From: Bacteroidales bacterium
GTDB taxonomy: Bacteria > Bacteroidota > Bacteroidia > Bacteroidales > ML635J-15
NCBI GenBank assembly: GCA_028702675.1
Contig: JAQVOJ010000021.1
Location: 1 to 34,455 of the forward strand
DNA: 34,455 nt
Direction: 5' to 3'
The notes beneath the pieces were generated by a model. The model saw only the letters and a program-made list of their open reading frames with translations. It did not search any database and was not told the origin of the DNA. The translations under genes were made by a program, and so were the position numbers. Position 1 is the first letter of the stretch, and every line of letters begins with the position of its first letter. This document shows, one piece after another, positions 88 to 11,915 of the stretch.

Positions 88-127
88 ATAAAAAAAAGAG
101 GCTGTCCACTTTTTAGACAGCCTCTTT
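88..127 (-). terminator. Rho-independent terminator downstream of tRNA-His
   Basis: 12-bp inverted repeat AAAGAGGCTGTC / GACAGCCTCTTT (95-106 / 116-127). A run of A on the + strand (91-97) gives a U-tract in the minus-strand transcript. Confidence 0.85.
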
Positions 128-133
128 GCTTTG

Positions 134-208
134 GGTGGAAGATGGGATTTGAACCCACGACCCCTGGAACCACAATCCAGTGCTCTAACCTACTGAGCTA
201 CATCCACC
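134..208 (-). tRNA. tRNA-His (anticodon GTG)
   Basis: The reverse complement folds as a cloverleaf: GTGGATG acceptor, GCTC...GAGC D-arm, CTGGA-TTGTGGT-TCCAG anticodon arm, GTGGG-TTCAAAT-CCCAT T-arm, CTTCCAC acceptor. An encoded G-1 sits opposite C73, the tRNA-His hallmark. CCA is not fully encoded. Confidence 0.95.
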
Positions 209-228
209 ATATTTTTTATCATCCCTTG

Positions 229-410
229 TGCTCTAACCCCCCGATAGTTATCGGGGGAGCTACATCCACCATATGTTTTATCATCCCTTGTGCTCTAACC
301 CCCCGATAGCCATCGGGGGAGCTACATCCACCATATTTTTTATCATCCCTTGTGCTCTAACCCCCCTCCGATAGCTATCGGAGTTATCGGGGGAGCTACA
401 TCCACCATAT
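229..410 (-). repeat. Tandem array of three ~62-bp units derived from the 5' part of tRNA-His, each with a palindrome in the D-loop
   Basis: Units start at 229, 291 and 353 with TGCTCTAACC and continue through a CCCCGATA..TATCGGGG-type palindrome into AGCTACATCCACCATAT. The flanks match tRNA-His plus its upstream spacer (181-228), where the palindrome is replaced by TACTG. Confidence 0.93.
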
Positions 411-424
411 GTTTTTTCGGCTTG

Positions 425-455
425 CAAATATAAATAGAAAATACTATATCACAAA
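425..455 (-). promoter_or_regulatory. Bacteroidetes-type promoter for the repeat array / tRNA-His transcript
   Basis: Minus strand reads TTTG (452-455), 19 nt, TATATTTG (425-432). This matches the Bacteroidetes consensus TTTG-N19-TAnnTTTG. Confidence 0.75.
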
Positions 456-2703: not shown

Positions 2704-5700
2704 TTGACAAAATCTTTTTACATATTGATAATCGTTTTATTGTGCAATAATTTAATTACTGCTCAATTGAGCTTTAATAACGAGTGGATTAATTATGACC
2801 AACAGTATTTTAAAATACTCGTTAGCGAAGATGGTATATACAGAATACCATACTCTCAACTTATTGAAGCCGGCATTCCTGTAGATCAGATTAACCCGCG
2901 ACAAATACAATTGTTTTACTTAGGCGAAGAGCAATATATACACATAAAGGGCGAAAATGCCGGAATTTTCGATCCTAATGGTTATATAGAATTTTACGGA
3001 AAGCGAAATAGAGGAATTATAGATACTACTGTTTACAATACTCATGCCGACCTTATTAACCCCGATTACAGTATGTTTAATGATACTTCGGTTTATTTCT
3101 TGACATGGAGCAATTCTTTTAATAATAATCGAATTAATATATCGGATAATACTGATTTCAATTCATGGGAAACAAATATTCCTAATTATTGCTTAAAAAC
3201 AGTTCGTAAGAATTACACAGGCCGTTATGTTGCAGGTTCGTCTAGGAATATTTATGGTGATGGCGAAGGTTGGTTCGATTCGCAAACAATAATGAAAGAT
3301 CACCCTGTATATGGAACTCAAAATGTAACAAAATCAATATCAACCCCTAATGTTTACGCTCAAGGTCCTGATGTGGAGCTTGAATGTGCTGTGGTAGGTT
3401 ATGCATCAAGTGCTCCTGATAACTATTATCCGCACCATTTAATTGTGAGTTTTTTGGGCAATGATTATATCAACGAAACATATACAGGATACGAACATGT
3501 AATTGCAAATACTTCTTTTAGTGCTTCATTATTAGGAAACAGCCTTAGCATGCTTTTTACAAGTAATGATATTTCTCAAACATCTGTTCCAGATCAAAAT
3601 GTAATTTCATATATCCAAATTAAATATCCACATAATTTGAATTTCGAAAGTACTACCAAGTTTCAATTTAGCATCGAAGCAGGAAGTGGAGGTATGCAAT
3701 TATTACAATTTACTAATTTTAATTCATCTAACAACGAGGATATCGTTTTATACGATCTAACCGAAAATTATAGAATTAAAGTAACAAAAGACGAAGAAGT
3801 GTTTAAAGCATTATTACCTGAATCCGGTACCAACCGTAATTATTACCTTACCTCGTCAAACGCTATAAAAGAAGTTGAAGATATCAGAAAAGTTTCACCA
3901 AATAATAAGTTCATTGATTATTTGAGTGAATATTCAGGTGCAAATTATTTAATTATTACTCATAAAAAATTAATAAATAGTGCACAACAGTATGCATCTT
4001 ACCGTAATTCAACAGGTTTTAATGTGGCTGTAGCAGATGTTGACCAATTATATTGCCAGTATGCTTTTGGTGTTGAGAAACATCCTATGGCTATAAGAAA
4101 ATTTGCCGAACATTTTTGTCATAATGGAGGGGTAAAACCTCAATATTTATTTCTTTTTGGTAAATCTCTGCATGCTTTCAATTATCGTAAAAACTCTCAA
4201 TTATTTGCATCTTGCTTAGTGCCTAGTTTCGGAAATCCATCTAGTGATAATTTATTTACTATTGGTATAGCACGAAACGATTTTAAACCTGAACTCGCTA
4301 CCGGAAGATTAGCCGCCAAAAATGAAGATGAAGCAATGCATTATCTAAATAAAATAATTGCATACGAAAATGCTCCCAGGGATGTATGGATGAAAAATGT
4401 TATGCACTTTGGCGGTGGAGCTAACGAAAACGAGCAACAAACATTTGCACAATATTTAAATAATTATGAAAATATTATTGAGGACACTTTGTTTGGAGCC
4501 TTTGTAAGTACTTTTTTAAAAACAAGTTCGGAGCCTATTCAAATTACTCAATCCGATTCTATTACCAACCTTATTAACAATGGTACCAGTTTAATGACAT
4601 TTTTCGGGCATGCTTCAGCTACCGGATTTGATCAATCTATTGACGACCCTATAAATTATCAGAATACCGGAAAATATCCTTTTATTTTGGCTAATTCGTG
4701 TTTTGCCGGAGATATTCATATAAACTCATCAACAAGCACTAGCGAAGATTGGGTACTTATTCCCGATAAAGGATGTATTGGATTTTTAGCCTCAGTTGGA
4801 GGAGGAATACCTTCGTATTTAAATAATTTTACTACCTCACTTTATAAAAAAATAAGCCGAGAATTGTATGGAAATAGTATAGGAGACCAATTTATAGCTG
4901 CTGTTGATGAAATACAGGAAAACAATCTGAATAATATACCCTTAGAAATTACTTGCCATGAATTTTTGTTACATGGAGATCCTGCTATTAAAATAAACGC
5001 TTTTGATAAACCTGATCTTACGGTTAAAATAGCAGATATTAGTTTTATTCCAAACGAAATAACTACTGTATTAGATAGTTTTGATGTAGAAATAGTTGTA
5101 ACAAACATGGGTAAAGCTACTTCACAAACATTTTTGTTAAGTATTAGTAGAGACTTACCAAATGAACAAATTGAAGAGTACAATGAAGTATTAAATGGAT
5201 GTAATTATAAGGATACCATAATCTTTAGAATGCCTGTTGATAAAGCAAACGGTCCCGGGTTAAATTCTTTACATGTTTTTGTAGATTCCTATAATGCGGT
5301 AGATGAATCAGACGAAACAAATAATAAAACGGACATTGAGTTTTTAATAAGATCGGCAGATCTTTTTCCCGTTTATCCTTACGAATATAGTATTTATCCG
5401 GCAAGTAATGTTAAACTGATAGCTTCAACCGGAGACCCTTTTACTTCCGAAGCAAGATATACTTTTCAGATTGACACTACTGATATGTTTAATAGCTTAG
5501 GAGGTGAACCCATTGCCAAAACTACAATAATCCAAAATGGAGGAATAATTTCGTGGGAAGTACCTTTCGATTTAAATCCTGAAACTGTATATTATTGGAG
5601 AATAGCTCTTGAACATCCCGAGCCCGACAGTATGATATGGAAAGAAAGCTCGTTTATATATATACCCGGAGAAGAGGGCTGGTCGCAAGCTCATTTCTAT

Positions 5701-9566: not shown

Positions 9567-11699
9567 ATGAAACCTAACAATAAGCATAACAGCAAAAATG
9601 CAAACAATCGTAAAGATAATAAATCATTAACAAATTTAATCTTAGGAATACTAAGTAGCAGCCCTCAAAAATTGTTTAATTACAAACAACTTTCGGCTAT
9701 ACTAAACAGAACAACTCATGAAAGTAAAGAAGAAATTGCACTTTTACTTGAAGAGTTAAAACACACCGGAACAATTGAAGAAGTTTATCGCGGGAAATAC
9801 AGATTTAAATCAAGGACAGGGATTATCGAAGGAGTTGTTGATATTAGTCGTAGAGGATATGCTAGAATTATTAGCGAAGAGCTTACCGATGATATTTTTG
9901 TATCACAAAAAAACTTACATAATTCTTTACATGGCGATAAAGTAAAAATAGTGTTATATGCCAAAAAACGTACATCTAAATTAGAAGGAGAGGTTATTGA
10001 AATACTTAAACGCTTCAGAGATAAATTTGCCGGTACAATAGAAATTGTAAAATCTTATGGTTTCTTAATACCTGACGACTCACGAATGCCTTACGATATT
10101 TATATTCCATTAGAGAATCTTAATGGAGCAAAATCGGGCGACAAAGTTTTAGTTTCAATCACAGAATGGCACCCTAAAGGTAAAAATCCAACAGGAACAG
10201 TTGTAAGAATATTAGGAAGACCAGGCGAAAACGATGCTGAAATGCATTCTATACTTGCAGAATTTGGACTCCCAATCGATTTCCCAAAAGATGTAGAACA
10301 AGCTGCTGAAAAAATTCGTGAAGAAATATCCCAATTTGACGAAGAAACAAGAAAAGATTTCCGCAATATCCTTACATTTACAATAGACCCTGCCGATGCC
10401 AAAGACTTTGATGATGCAATTTCTTTTGAAAAAAATAATGATGACACATTTAACATAGGAATTCATATTGCTGATGTAAGTTATTACGTAACCCCCGGTA
10501 ATACTATCGACGAAGAAGCTAAAAGTCGTGCAACATCAATCTACTTGGTTGACAGGGTTGTTCCAATGTTGCCTGAAAAATTATCTAATAAGGTTTGTAG
10601 TTTAAGACCAAAAGAAGACAAACTTTGTTTCTCTGCTGTTTTTAAAATTAATAAAGAAGCTGAGATATCAGATTCGTGGTTTGGTAGAACTATTATTAAT
10701 TCTGATTATCGTTTTGATTATTCCGAAGTGCAAAAAATATTGGACACGCAAAATGGTAGCATTGCCTCAGAACTAAAACAAATAAATGAAATTGCAAAAA
10801 AACTTAGAGAAAAACGATTCCATAAAGGATCACTGAATTTTGAACATGCCGAAGTAAAATTCAAACTAGATGAAAAAGGGAAACCAATAAGTGTTTATTT
10901 TAAAGAAGCAACAGAAGCAAATCACTTAATTGAAGAATTTATGCTTTTAGCAAATAAAAAAGTTGCAGAGCTTATTGGTAAATCTAAACGAACCATGATA
11001 TACAGAGTACACGACGAACCTAATCCCGAAAAACTACAATCTTTTGCTGGTTTTATACGCAGATTCGGACATCAGTTGCCAACCGGAAACCCGAAGAAAA
11101 TACCTCAATCACTAAATGCCCTAATCAATGATGTGCAGGGAAAACCAGAACAGAATATAATTGAAAACCTTGCAGTAAGAAGTATGGCAAAAGCCGAATA
11201 TAGTATCGATAATATAGGCCATTACGGATTAGCATTTGATTACTATACACACTTTACATCTCCAATAAGACGATATCCAGACCTTATAGTACATAGATTA
11301 TTAGCTGCATTCCTTAAAAACGAAAAAACTCCAAAAGATAACTACGAATGGCTATGTAAACATAGTTCCGATATGGAACAACTCGCTACACAAGCAGAAA
11401 GAGCCTCAATAAAATATAAACAAGCCGAATTCTTAAGTGATAAAATTGGAAACCAATTCGAAGGAGTAATATCGGGAGTTACAGAATGGGGATTCTTTGT
11501 GGAACTTACCGAAAATGCTTGCGAAGGTCTTGTACCAATGCGTTCACTTACCGATGATTTTTATTATTTTGACGAAGACAATTATTGTATCAAAGGTAAA
11601 AGCAATGGCAAAATGTTTATGCTTGGCGATAAAGTAAAGATTGAAATTATTAAAGTTAATTTACAGAAAAAACAGGTAGATATGGATTTGGTTGAATAG
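9567..11699 (+). CDS. rnr: Ribonuclease R
   Basis: 710 aa; RNB catalytic motif TIDPADAKDFDDAIS; YTHFTSPIRRYPDLIVHR; C-terminal S1 domain. Confidence 0.96.
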   Translation: MKPNNKHNSKNANNRKDNKSLTNLILGILSSSPQKLFNYKQLSAILNRTTHESKEEIALLLEELKHTGTIEEVYRGKYRFKSRTGIIEGVVDISRRGYARIISEELTDDIFVSQKNLHNSLHGDKVKIVLYAKKRTSKLEGEVIEILKRFRDKFAGTIEIVKSYGFLIPDDSRMPYDIYIPLENLNGAKSGDKVLVSITEWHPKGKNPTGTVVRILGRPGENDAEMHSILAEFGLPIDFPKDVEQAAEKIREEISQFDEETRKDFRNILTFTIDPADAKDFDDAISFEKNNDDTFNIGIHIADVSYYVTPGNTIDEEAKSRATSIYLVDRVVPMLPEKLSNKVCSLRPKEDKLCFSAVFKINKEAEISDSWFGRTIINSDYRFDYSEVQKILDTQNGSIASELKQINEIAKKLREKRFHKGSLNFEHAEVKFKLDEKGKPISVYFKEATEANHLIEEFMLLANKKVAELIGKSKRTMIYRVHDEPNPEKLQSFAGFIRRFGHQLPTGNPKKIPQSLNALINDVQGKPEQNIIENLAVRSMAKAEYSIDNIGHYGLAFDYYTHFTSPIRRYPDLIVHRLLAAFLKNEKTPKDNYEWLCKHSSDMEQLATQAERASIKYKQAEFLSDKIGNQFEGVISGVTEWGFFVELTENACEGLVPMRSLTDDFYYFDEDNYCIKGKSNGKMFMLGDKVKIEIIKVNLQKKQVDMDLVE

Positions 11700-11700
11700 G

Positions 11701-11785
11701 GGGTAGGTGACAGGTTTTAGGGGGTAGGTGACAGGTTTTAGGAGGTAGGTGACAGGTTTTAGGGGGTAGGATTTAGGTTTTAAGG
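11701..11785. repeat. 21-bp tandem repeat (~4 copies), G-rich
   Basis: GGGTAGGTGACAGGTTTTAGG copies start at 11701, 11722, 11743 and 11764 (last degenerate), immediately after the rnr stop codon. Confidence 0.9.
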
Positions 11786-11915
11786 GTTGGAATTTGAAAT
11801 TTAAAATTTATAGGGCTACACCTTATTATGTTATTAAAAAACCATTCATATTTTAAAAATAATCTTGAAAATACTATAATTTTACGTATTTTGTAACAAA
11901 TTATACATTTTAGTC

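Follow-up and report, generated by a model that had tools for sequence, protein, structure and literature searches.

Directly upstream of an intact tRNA-His gene, a Bacteroidales genome carries a tandem array of partial copies of that tRNA, each with part of its D-loop replaced by a palindrome. Arrays of this kind recur beside tRNA genes in Bacteroidota, are mirrored by 3′ tRNA halves downstream of tRNAs, and at some loci contain genes for small GIY-YIG proteins. We give about an even chance to the reading that the tRNA-His array is an ORF-less member of a recurrent tRNA-gene-associated insertion class in Bacteroidota, in which a GIY-YIG element specific for tRNA genes has left scars and tandem amplifications, its fragments inactivated by a dispersed palindrome.

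The tRNA-His array and its counterparts in the same genome

The window (the whole 34,455-nt stretch that we analyzed) is contig C80 of a 188-contig, 3.09-Mb genome. Three units lie upstream of tRNA-His in transcript sense, at 228-406 on the minus strand, with a period of 62 (TRF: 2.8 copies, 96% match, score 323). The locus contains the following features:

90..132, minus: probable terminator, a hairpin plus T-run directly 3′ of tRNA-His (inverted repeat)
133..207, minus: intact tRNA-His, anticodon GTG (ARAGORN; Rfam RF00005, 67.7 bits)
208..227, minus: spacer from unit 1 to tRNA-His (direct repeats)
228..270, minus: decoy unit 1 (tRNA-proximal), a copy of tRNA-His nt 1-27 with a D-loop palindrome (sequence, direct repeats)
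239..256, minus: palindrome of unit 1, CCCCGATAACTATCGGGG, 18 nt, replacing AGTA (nt 14-17) (sequence)
290..332, minus: decoy unit 2 (sequence, direct repeats)
301..318, minus: palindrome of unit 2, CCCCGATGGCTATCGGGG, 18 nt, centre imperfect (sequence)
351..406, minus: decoy unit 3 (promoter-proximal) (sequence)
363..392, minus: nested palindrome of unit 3, 30 nt, CCGATAGCTATCGG within outer CCCCGATAA...GGGG (sequence; generic-pattern match AGCTCCCCCGATAACTCCGATAGCTATCGGAGGGGGGTTAGAGC)
425..432, minus: TATATTTG, upstream of the array, a candidate −7 box of the Bacteroidota type TAnnTTTG (sequence; consensus)

Each decoy reads GGTGGATGTAGCTC, palindrome, GGTTAGAGCAC, and is followed by CAAGGGATGATAAAA(A/C)ATAT. 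Nucleotides 1-13 and 18-27 of the tRNA are copied exactly, and nt 14-17 (AGTA) are swapped for a CCCCGATA..TATCGGGG palindrome. The spacer at 208..227, which is the 3′ part of the leader, recurs at 271-289 and 333-350, and unit 3 is longer because its palindrome is nested, one palindrome lying within another. A first-pass annotation, made from the sequence alone, had described three tandem units derived from the 5′ part of tRNA-His, and ARAGORN, Rfam, TRF and the direct repeats confirm them. The palindromes that it reported are real, at 18, 18 and 30 nt rather than 19, 19 and 31, and so is the D-loop replacement, which removes AGTA and not, as it had stated, the one-base-longer CAGTA. It was also right that the units are not tRNAs: they have neither an anticodon arm nor a T arm, and neither ARAGORN nor Rfam cmscan (RF00005) calls them. 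No 3′ tRNA remnant was found downstream of tRNA-His at 90..132. On the other side of the array, TATATTTG at 425..432 fits the Bacteroidota −7 consensus TAnnTTTG; this candidate box would probably place the array within the transcribed pre-tRNA leader. TRF also detected a 21-bp tandem repeat (TAGGGGGTAGGTGACAGGTTT) at 11697-11795 of the window, close to the end of a 710-aa ORF.

A search with the palindrome core revealed arrays at other tRNA genes of the genome, which brings the independent arrays to four, at tRNA-His, tRNA-Val(TAC), tRNA-Pro(TGG) and an Asn-type tRNA, each copying its own tRNA with the same part of the D-loop replaced. The Val array has 52-bp units and lies on two contig ends, the Pro array has at least 7 units of ~75 bp with one stretch given as N, and the Asn-type array has 58-bp units at a contig end. 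None was found at the remaining assembled tRNA genes of this genome. The generic pattern AGCTCNCCN{6,36}GGNGGTTN{0,1}AGAGC matched nine times in the genome versus zero times for a reversed control, which excludes a chance origin. The Asn-type array runs off its contig (G000:C147:1-150) and no tRNA-Asn gene was found in the assembly, probably because the array broke the assembly there.

Contigs of this MAG are broken at their ends by the Val and Asn arrays, and an N gap falls in the Pro array, as might be expected if the repeats were an assembly or sequencing artefact. We reject this explanation, to which we give practically no credence: arrays are present in the complete genome CP012155, in isolate genomes and in many independent assemblies, and their units differ in sequence. 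At tRNA-His, three unequal variants within one contig also speak against a collapsed repeat.

Recurrence across Bacteroidota and the dispersed palindrome

We scanned one genome per species from ~85,000 species with a pattern of 19 fixed bases, for which we estimate ~2 chance matches, and found 64 further stretches, nearly all titled Bacteroidota, with hosts in Flavobacteriaceae, Cytophagales, Chitinophagales and Bacteroidales. A MAG titled Rickettsiales contributed one (L112), and its locus is closely like that of Marinoscillum. An intact tRNA lies downstream on the same strand in 54 of the 64 stretches (54 of 56 once those truncated at a contig end are set aside), at a median offset of 76 nt and always within 525 nt; eight of the others reach contig ends and two are without a tRNA. 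None of the 56 uncut stretches has a tRNA upstream only. The decoy's seven acceptor bases, which are outside the search pattern, equal those of the adjacent tRNA exactly in 48 of 53 tested cases, and the 5′ homology of the decoys ends mostly at nt 26-28. Covariation is seen in the outer bases of the palindrome (TC/GA, TT/AA, and CC/GG in the window genome). Decoys without the palindrome core are under-counted, because the search pattern fixes that core. The possibility raised by the first-pass annotation of a one-off neutral duplication, with no similar units in relatives, is contradicted by these more than 60 loci elsewhere in the phylum.

The generic D-loop pattern was found in 0 of 30 other genomes of the same family and in two other genomes of the order in our sample. 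Run over 395 genomes of the order, it returned this palindrome family alone, and we discarded the idea of decoys with other GC-clamped D-loop palindromes. The decoy pattern was absent from 2.9 million viral contigs and no close phage relative was found for the GIY-YIG protein of UKL13-3 (below), on which grounds we rejected a phage origin. A known Rfam element was also rejected, as cmscan of the window and eight loci gave tRNA alone, with no match to the RF00391 covariance model. The literature that we searched held no description of such tRNA-half repeats in Bacteroidota.

The palindrome itself is dispersed, with 10-13 copies per genome and 67 in UKL13-3 (control, 0-2); its core has 18 copies in the window genome (control, 1). 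It is perfect, has no GTAG foot, and is found also away from tRNAs. That it always inserts into hairpin loops is true of the tRNA arms and untrue of most dispersed copies, and we abandoned that idea. In Salinimicrobium, the same palindrome lies within a second dispersed repeat away from tRNAs, TTTTGCCC(C/T)-TCCCGATAGCTATCGGGA-CTAAAGGGAGCC, at several places (L137, L138, L139, L144, L145 and L146 of G423). At G000:C158:14020 (L005), a copy (ATCCCGATAGCTATCGGGAG) lies a short way upstream of an ORF that begins MTKILGLDLGTNSIGWAVVE and resembles a type II Cas9.

Like REP/BIME elements, the palindrome is short and present in many dispersed extragenic copies; unlike them, it occupies one exact position of tRNA fragments. 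Mobile hairpins in the loops of structured RNA genes include STRR in cyanobacterial rnpB and the double-hairpin elements of Allomyces mtDNA. The Bacteroidota palindromes are similarly placed in loops of structured RNA genes, but whereas the host RNA of those elements stays functional, their own host is a partial duplicate next to an intact gene. The E. coli tyrT repeat, or rtT RNA (RF00391), consists of tandem units with a 3′ piece downstream of one tRNA at one locus, without a loop palindrome or a nuclease. Our loci share with it tandem units beside a tRNA gene, each holding a piece of that tRNA, and differ from it in their loop palindromes, their nuclease association and their occurrence at many loci.

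Mirror-image 3′ halves, GIY-YIG genes and empty sites

Downstream of tRNAs lie 3′ tRNA halves with a palindrome in the T-loop. In the complete genome of UKL13-3 (CP012155), tRNA-Asn is preceded by 11 5′ units of 80 bp and followed by seven units of 410 bp, each comprising the 3′ part of tRNA-Asn with its T-loop replaced (CTGGTTC-palindrome-CAGG) and an ORF encoding a GIY-YIG domain protein (PF01541, E=2e-11). In the same genome, 13 units of 63 bp lie downstream of tRNA-Leu, each repeating the 3′ part of that tRNA, again with the T-loop replaced. A Thr-Tyr-Gly-Thr operon has a 5′ decoy ahead of its first tRNA and a 3′-half array after its last; the 3′ halves at Thr in UKL13-3 form 65-bp units. 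At L107 a 5′ remnant (nt 1-26) and a 3′ remnant (nt 31-75) flank a GIY-YIG gene and an intact tRNA.

Elsewhere, palindromes occupy the D, anticodon, variable or T region of nearly full-length tRNA copies. In several remnants the T-loop or D-loop is intact and the palindrome sits in the anticodon or variable arm, and some remnants carry palindromes of other sequence families (TCCCGAC..GTCGGGA, CCTGCCTGCCGGCAGGCAGG). When 300 genomes of the phylum were searched with a T-loop pattern, most matches were not tRNA sequences, and tRNA remnants turned up in G541 and G609. In G609, a tRNA-Ala remnant in which two loops hold palindromes comes after a tRNA-Ile/tRNA-Ala pair (L230, ~490-600). Full-length tRNA-Phe-like and another tRNA-like copy, with palindromes in the D-loop and T-loop, occur at L098 (minus, ~3990-4110) and L055 (~1067-1170). 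Three loci of the window genome's family (L185, L189 and L175) have remnants beside GIY-YIG genes in which TCCCGAC..GTCGGGA replaces the anticodon arm; the palindrome here is a different one, and its choice therefore varies by lineage.

The tRNA-linked GIY-YIG proteins are ~95 aa long and chromosomal. Their genes have an intact tRNA on one side and a fragment of that tRNA on the other, in both orders, at Asn, Met, Val, Leu, Phe, Ala, His, Asp and Arg loci, and at L072 units with and without the ORF stand side by side in one array. A small GIY-YIG gene lies within 600 bp of the decoy in 13 of 53 loci, an under-count because many loci are MAG contigs cut near the tRNA. A search of the window's family that was not aimed at decoys returned GIY-YIG genes adjoining tRNA-Met, tRNA-Val (twice), tRNA-Ala and a tRNA-Lys remnant. 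In a tree of 74 small GIY-YIG domains, the tRNA-adjacent ones cluster (5 label changes vs 25 when shuffled; 0/500), and subclades track tRNA identity across host families (12 vs 18 changes; 0/200; L071 was automatically labelled Met, though its array belongs to Asn), as expected from specificity for one tRNA gene. The identity subclades include Met in Flavobacteriaceae, Flammeovirgaceae and Chitinophagaceae, Val, and two Asn groups. Related loci encode the catalytic domain as a free-standing protein, whereas the window genome has no small GIY-YIG gene and the domain occurs there in two long proteins alone (open frames of 623 and 457 aa).

Related loci also have a conserved target gene with empty sites in relatives, as homing elements do. 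Salinimicrobium sediminilitoris has two insertions at tRNA-Met, a decoy of 42-48 nt placed precisely at the 5′ end of the tRNA and an ORF-bearing unit just upstream of the −7 box, outside the tRNA; both are missing from two other members of the genus, S. TH3 and S. xinjiangense. The empty sites in sister species mark the decoys as derived insertions or duplications. Once present, decoys change little. The Asn decoy varies at 0 of 41 columns across seven species (19 of them fixed by the search pattern, 22 free), compared with 26 of 39 spacer columns, and the Salinimicrobium Gly-TCC decoy, with no nuclease nearby, varies at one position compared with 16 of 31 in the spacer. The tRNA-derived decoy columns could have been preserved by gene conversion with the neighbouring tRNA, a process that cannot account for the eight free palindrome columns.

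Origin and possible function of the arrays

Phage T6 SegB, a GIY-YIG enzyme, cuts within tRNA genes, prefers RAWTSGAAC, the complement of the T-loop sequence GTTCSAWTY, and is needed for tandem amplification of a tRNA segment by recombination (PMC13096335). Cutting inside tRNA genes at a T-loop motif, with tandem segmental amplification as the result, is a property of SegB-type enzymes (PMC13096335). The Bacteroidota loci resemble SegB and other free-standing GIY-YIG homing endonucleases of T-even phages (PMC13096335) in placing a small GIY-YIG protein beside tRNA genes, and differ in being chromosomal, in the ~95-aa length of the protein, in their single tRNA identities and palindrome-bearing tRNA halves, and in that most arrays are ORF-less. 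In the 3′ fragments the palindrome begins right after GTTC or GTTC(A/G), destroying the SegB-type motif (GTTC followed by GAWTC), and in the 5′ fragments it destroys the corresponding conserved D-loop stretch. By analogy, the SegB precedent and this loss of motif would favour break, duplication and amplification by a tRNA-specific GIY-YIG enzyme.

We propose that a clade of small free-standing GIY-YIG endonucleases, with one tRNA identity per subclade, would break tRNA genes, and that during repair one intact tRNA gene would be retained and a partial copy gained: nt 1 to ~27, sometimes together with the leader, on the upstream side, or the 3′ part on the downstream side. The duplicated fragments would carry the dispersed palindrome (TCCCGATAGCTATCGGGA type) in the D-loop or T-loop, and so would lose the conserved loop sequence by which a nuclease would recognise a tRNA gene and no longer serve as tRNAs. 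Such fragments may persist as poor tRNA mimics that are no longer cut, and repeated break-repair or unequal exchange could build tandem arrays from them. Loss of the nuclease gene would then leave only short arrays such as that at tRNA-His, inside a transcribed pre-tRNA leader. We infer that the nuclease makes the breaks and that the palindrome blocks re-cutting. The window array probably once had a nuclease gene too, given its identity in kind with loci carrying the enzyme (e.g. L072).

Several findings run against a nuclease origin: the window genome encodes no small GIY-YIG protein, 40 of 53 decoy loci lack such a gene within 600 bp, copies of the palindrome are found outside tRNA contexts too, decoys are conserved where no nuclease is nearby, and the ORF-bearing unit of S. 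sediminilitoris lies upstream of the −7 box, outside the tRNA. Remnants with an intact T-loop or D-loop mean that blocking of one fixed cut site does not suit every case. The first-pass annotation had offered, among other ideas, a REP-like palindrome inserted into an amplified tRNA fragment. This comes close, with a palindrome that proves dispersed, low-copy and phylum-wide; the mirrored 3′ halves, full-length remnants, tRNA-specific GIY-YIG genes and empty sites lay beyond its view, and its interpretation as a whole is partly supported.

Without a nuclease or any function, tandem duplication at tRNA ends might be followed by entry of a mobile REP-like palindrome into the non-functional copy, with only spare-copy insertions surviving. 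The dispersal of the palindrome and the presence of other host palindromes in remnants agree with such neutral debris. We nonetheless consider it unlikely: the same four D-loop bases are hit almost always in independent cases, divergence affects spacers but leaves acceptor strands and palindromes intact, and the association with a GIY-YIG clade and the match to tRNA identity go unexplained.

The main rival to a nuclease origin is a selected pre-tRNA leader element, which we consider rather improbable. Its spare acceptor strand and hairpin would compete with or pace the folding, RNase P cleavage or turnover of the downstream tRNA, or would give a stable tRNA-half-like small RNA. Decoys do sit between a candidate promoter and the first tRNA, and both the Asn decoy and the Gly-TCC decoy are conserved as selection would predict, though part of that conservation, the palindrome excepted, could be gene conversion. 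A leader function leaves unexplained the GIY-YIG genes inside units, the downstream 3′ halves, the full-length remnants with palindromes in other loops, and the patchy, lineage-specific distribution.

A broader reading, which we offer tentatively, is that phylum-wide cis-acting tRNA-half decoys bracket tRNA operons, 5′ halves with altered D-loops upstream and 3′ halves with altered T-loops downstream, and were selected as nuclease-resistant, folding-competent decoys in a conflict between GIY-YIG parasite and host, affecting tRNA maturation. The loci look like an undescribed kind of tRNA-gene parasite or its scars, and join three things unconnected in the literature that we searched: dispersed palindromes in Bacteroidota, small GIY-YIG genes next to tRNAs, and tandem repeats of tRNA fragments. 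If the nuclease origin is true, a homing system specific for tRNA identity resides in bacterial chromosomes and leaves scars that can be recognised, these pre-tRNAs contain strong half-tRNA structures that compete, and tRNA-gene parasitism, tandem amplification and pre-tRNA processing become directly testable in cultured Flavobacterium and Salinimicrobium species.

Predicted folding also bears on a leader function. In equilibrium predictions that leave out tertiary contacts and proteins, mean acceptor pairing falls from 0.855 for the tRNA alone to 0.297 with a decoy, and stands at 0.505 when the decoy's acceptor is scrambled. These predictions agree with the proposal of the first-pass annotation that the decoy's extra acceptor 5′ strand competes with that of the tRNA. 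A rescue of tRNA folding by the palindrome, in terms of secondary structure, is weakly supported (0.297 vs 0.206, p=0.003), with no effect in the window array (0.073 vs 0.068), and we set the idea aside; a normal D-loop in place of the palindrome changed the predicted acceptor pairing little.
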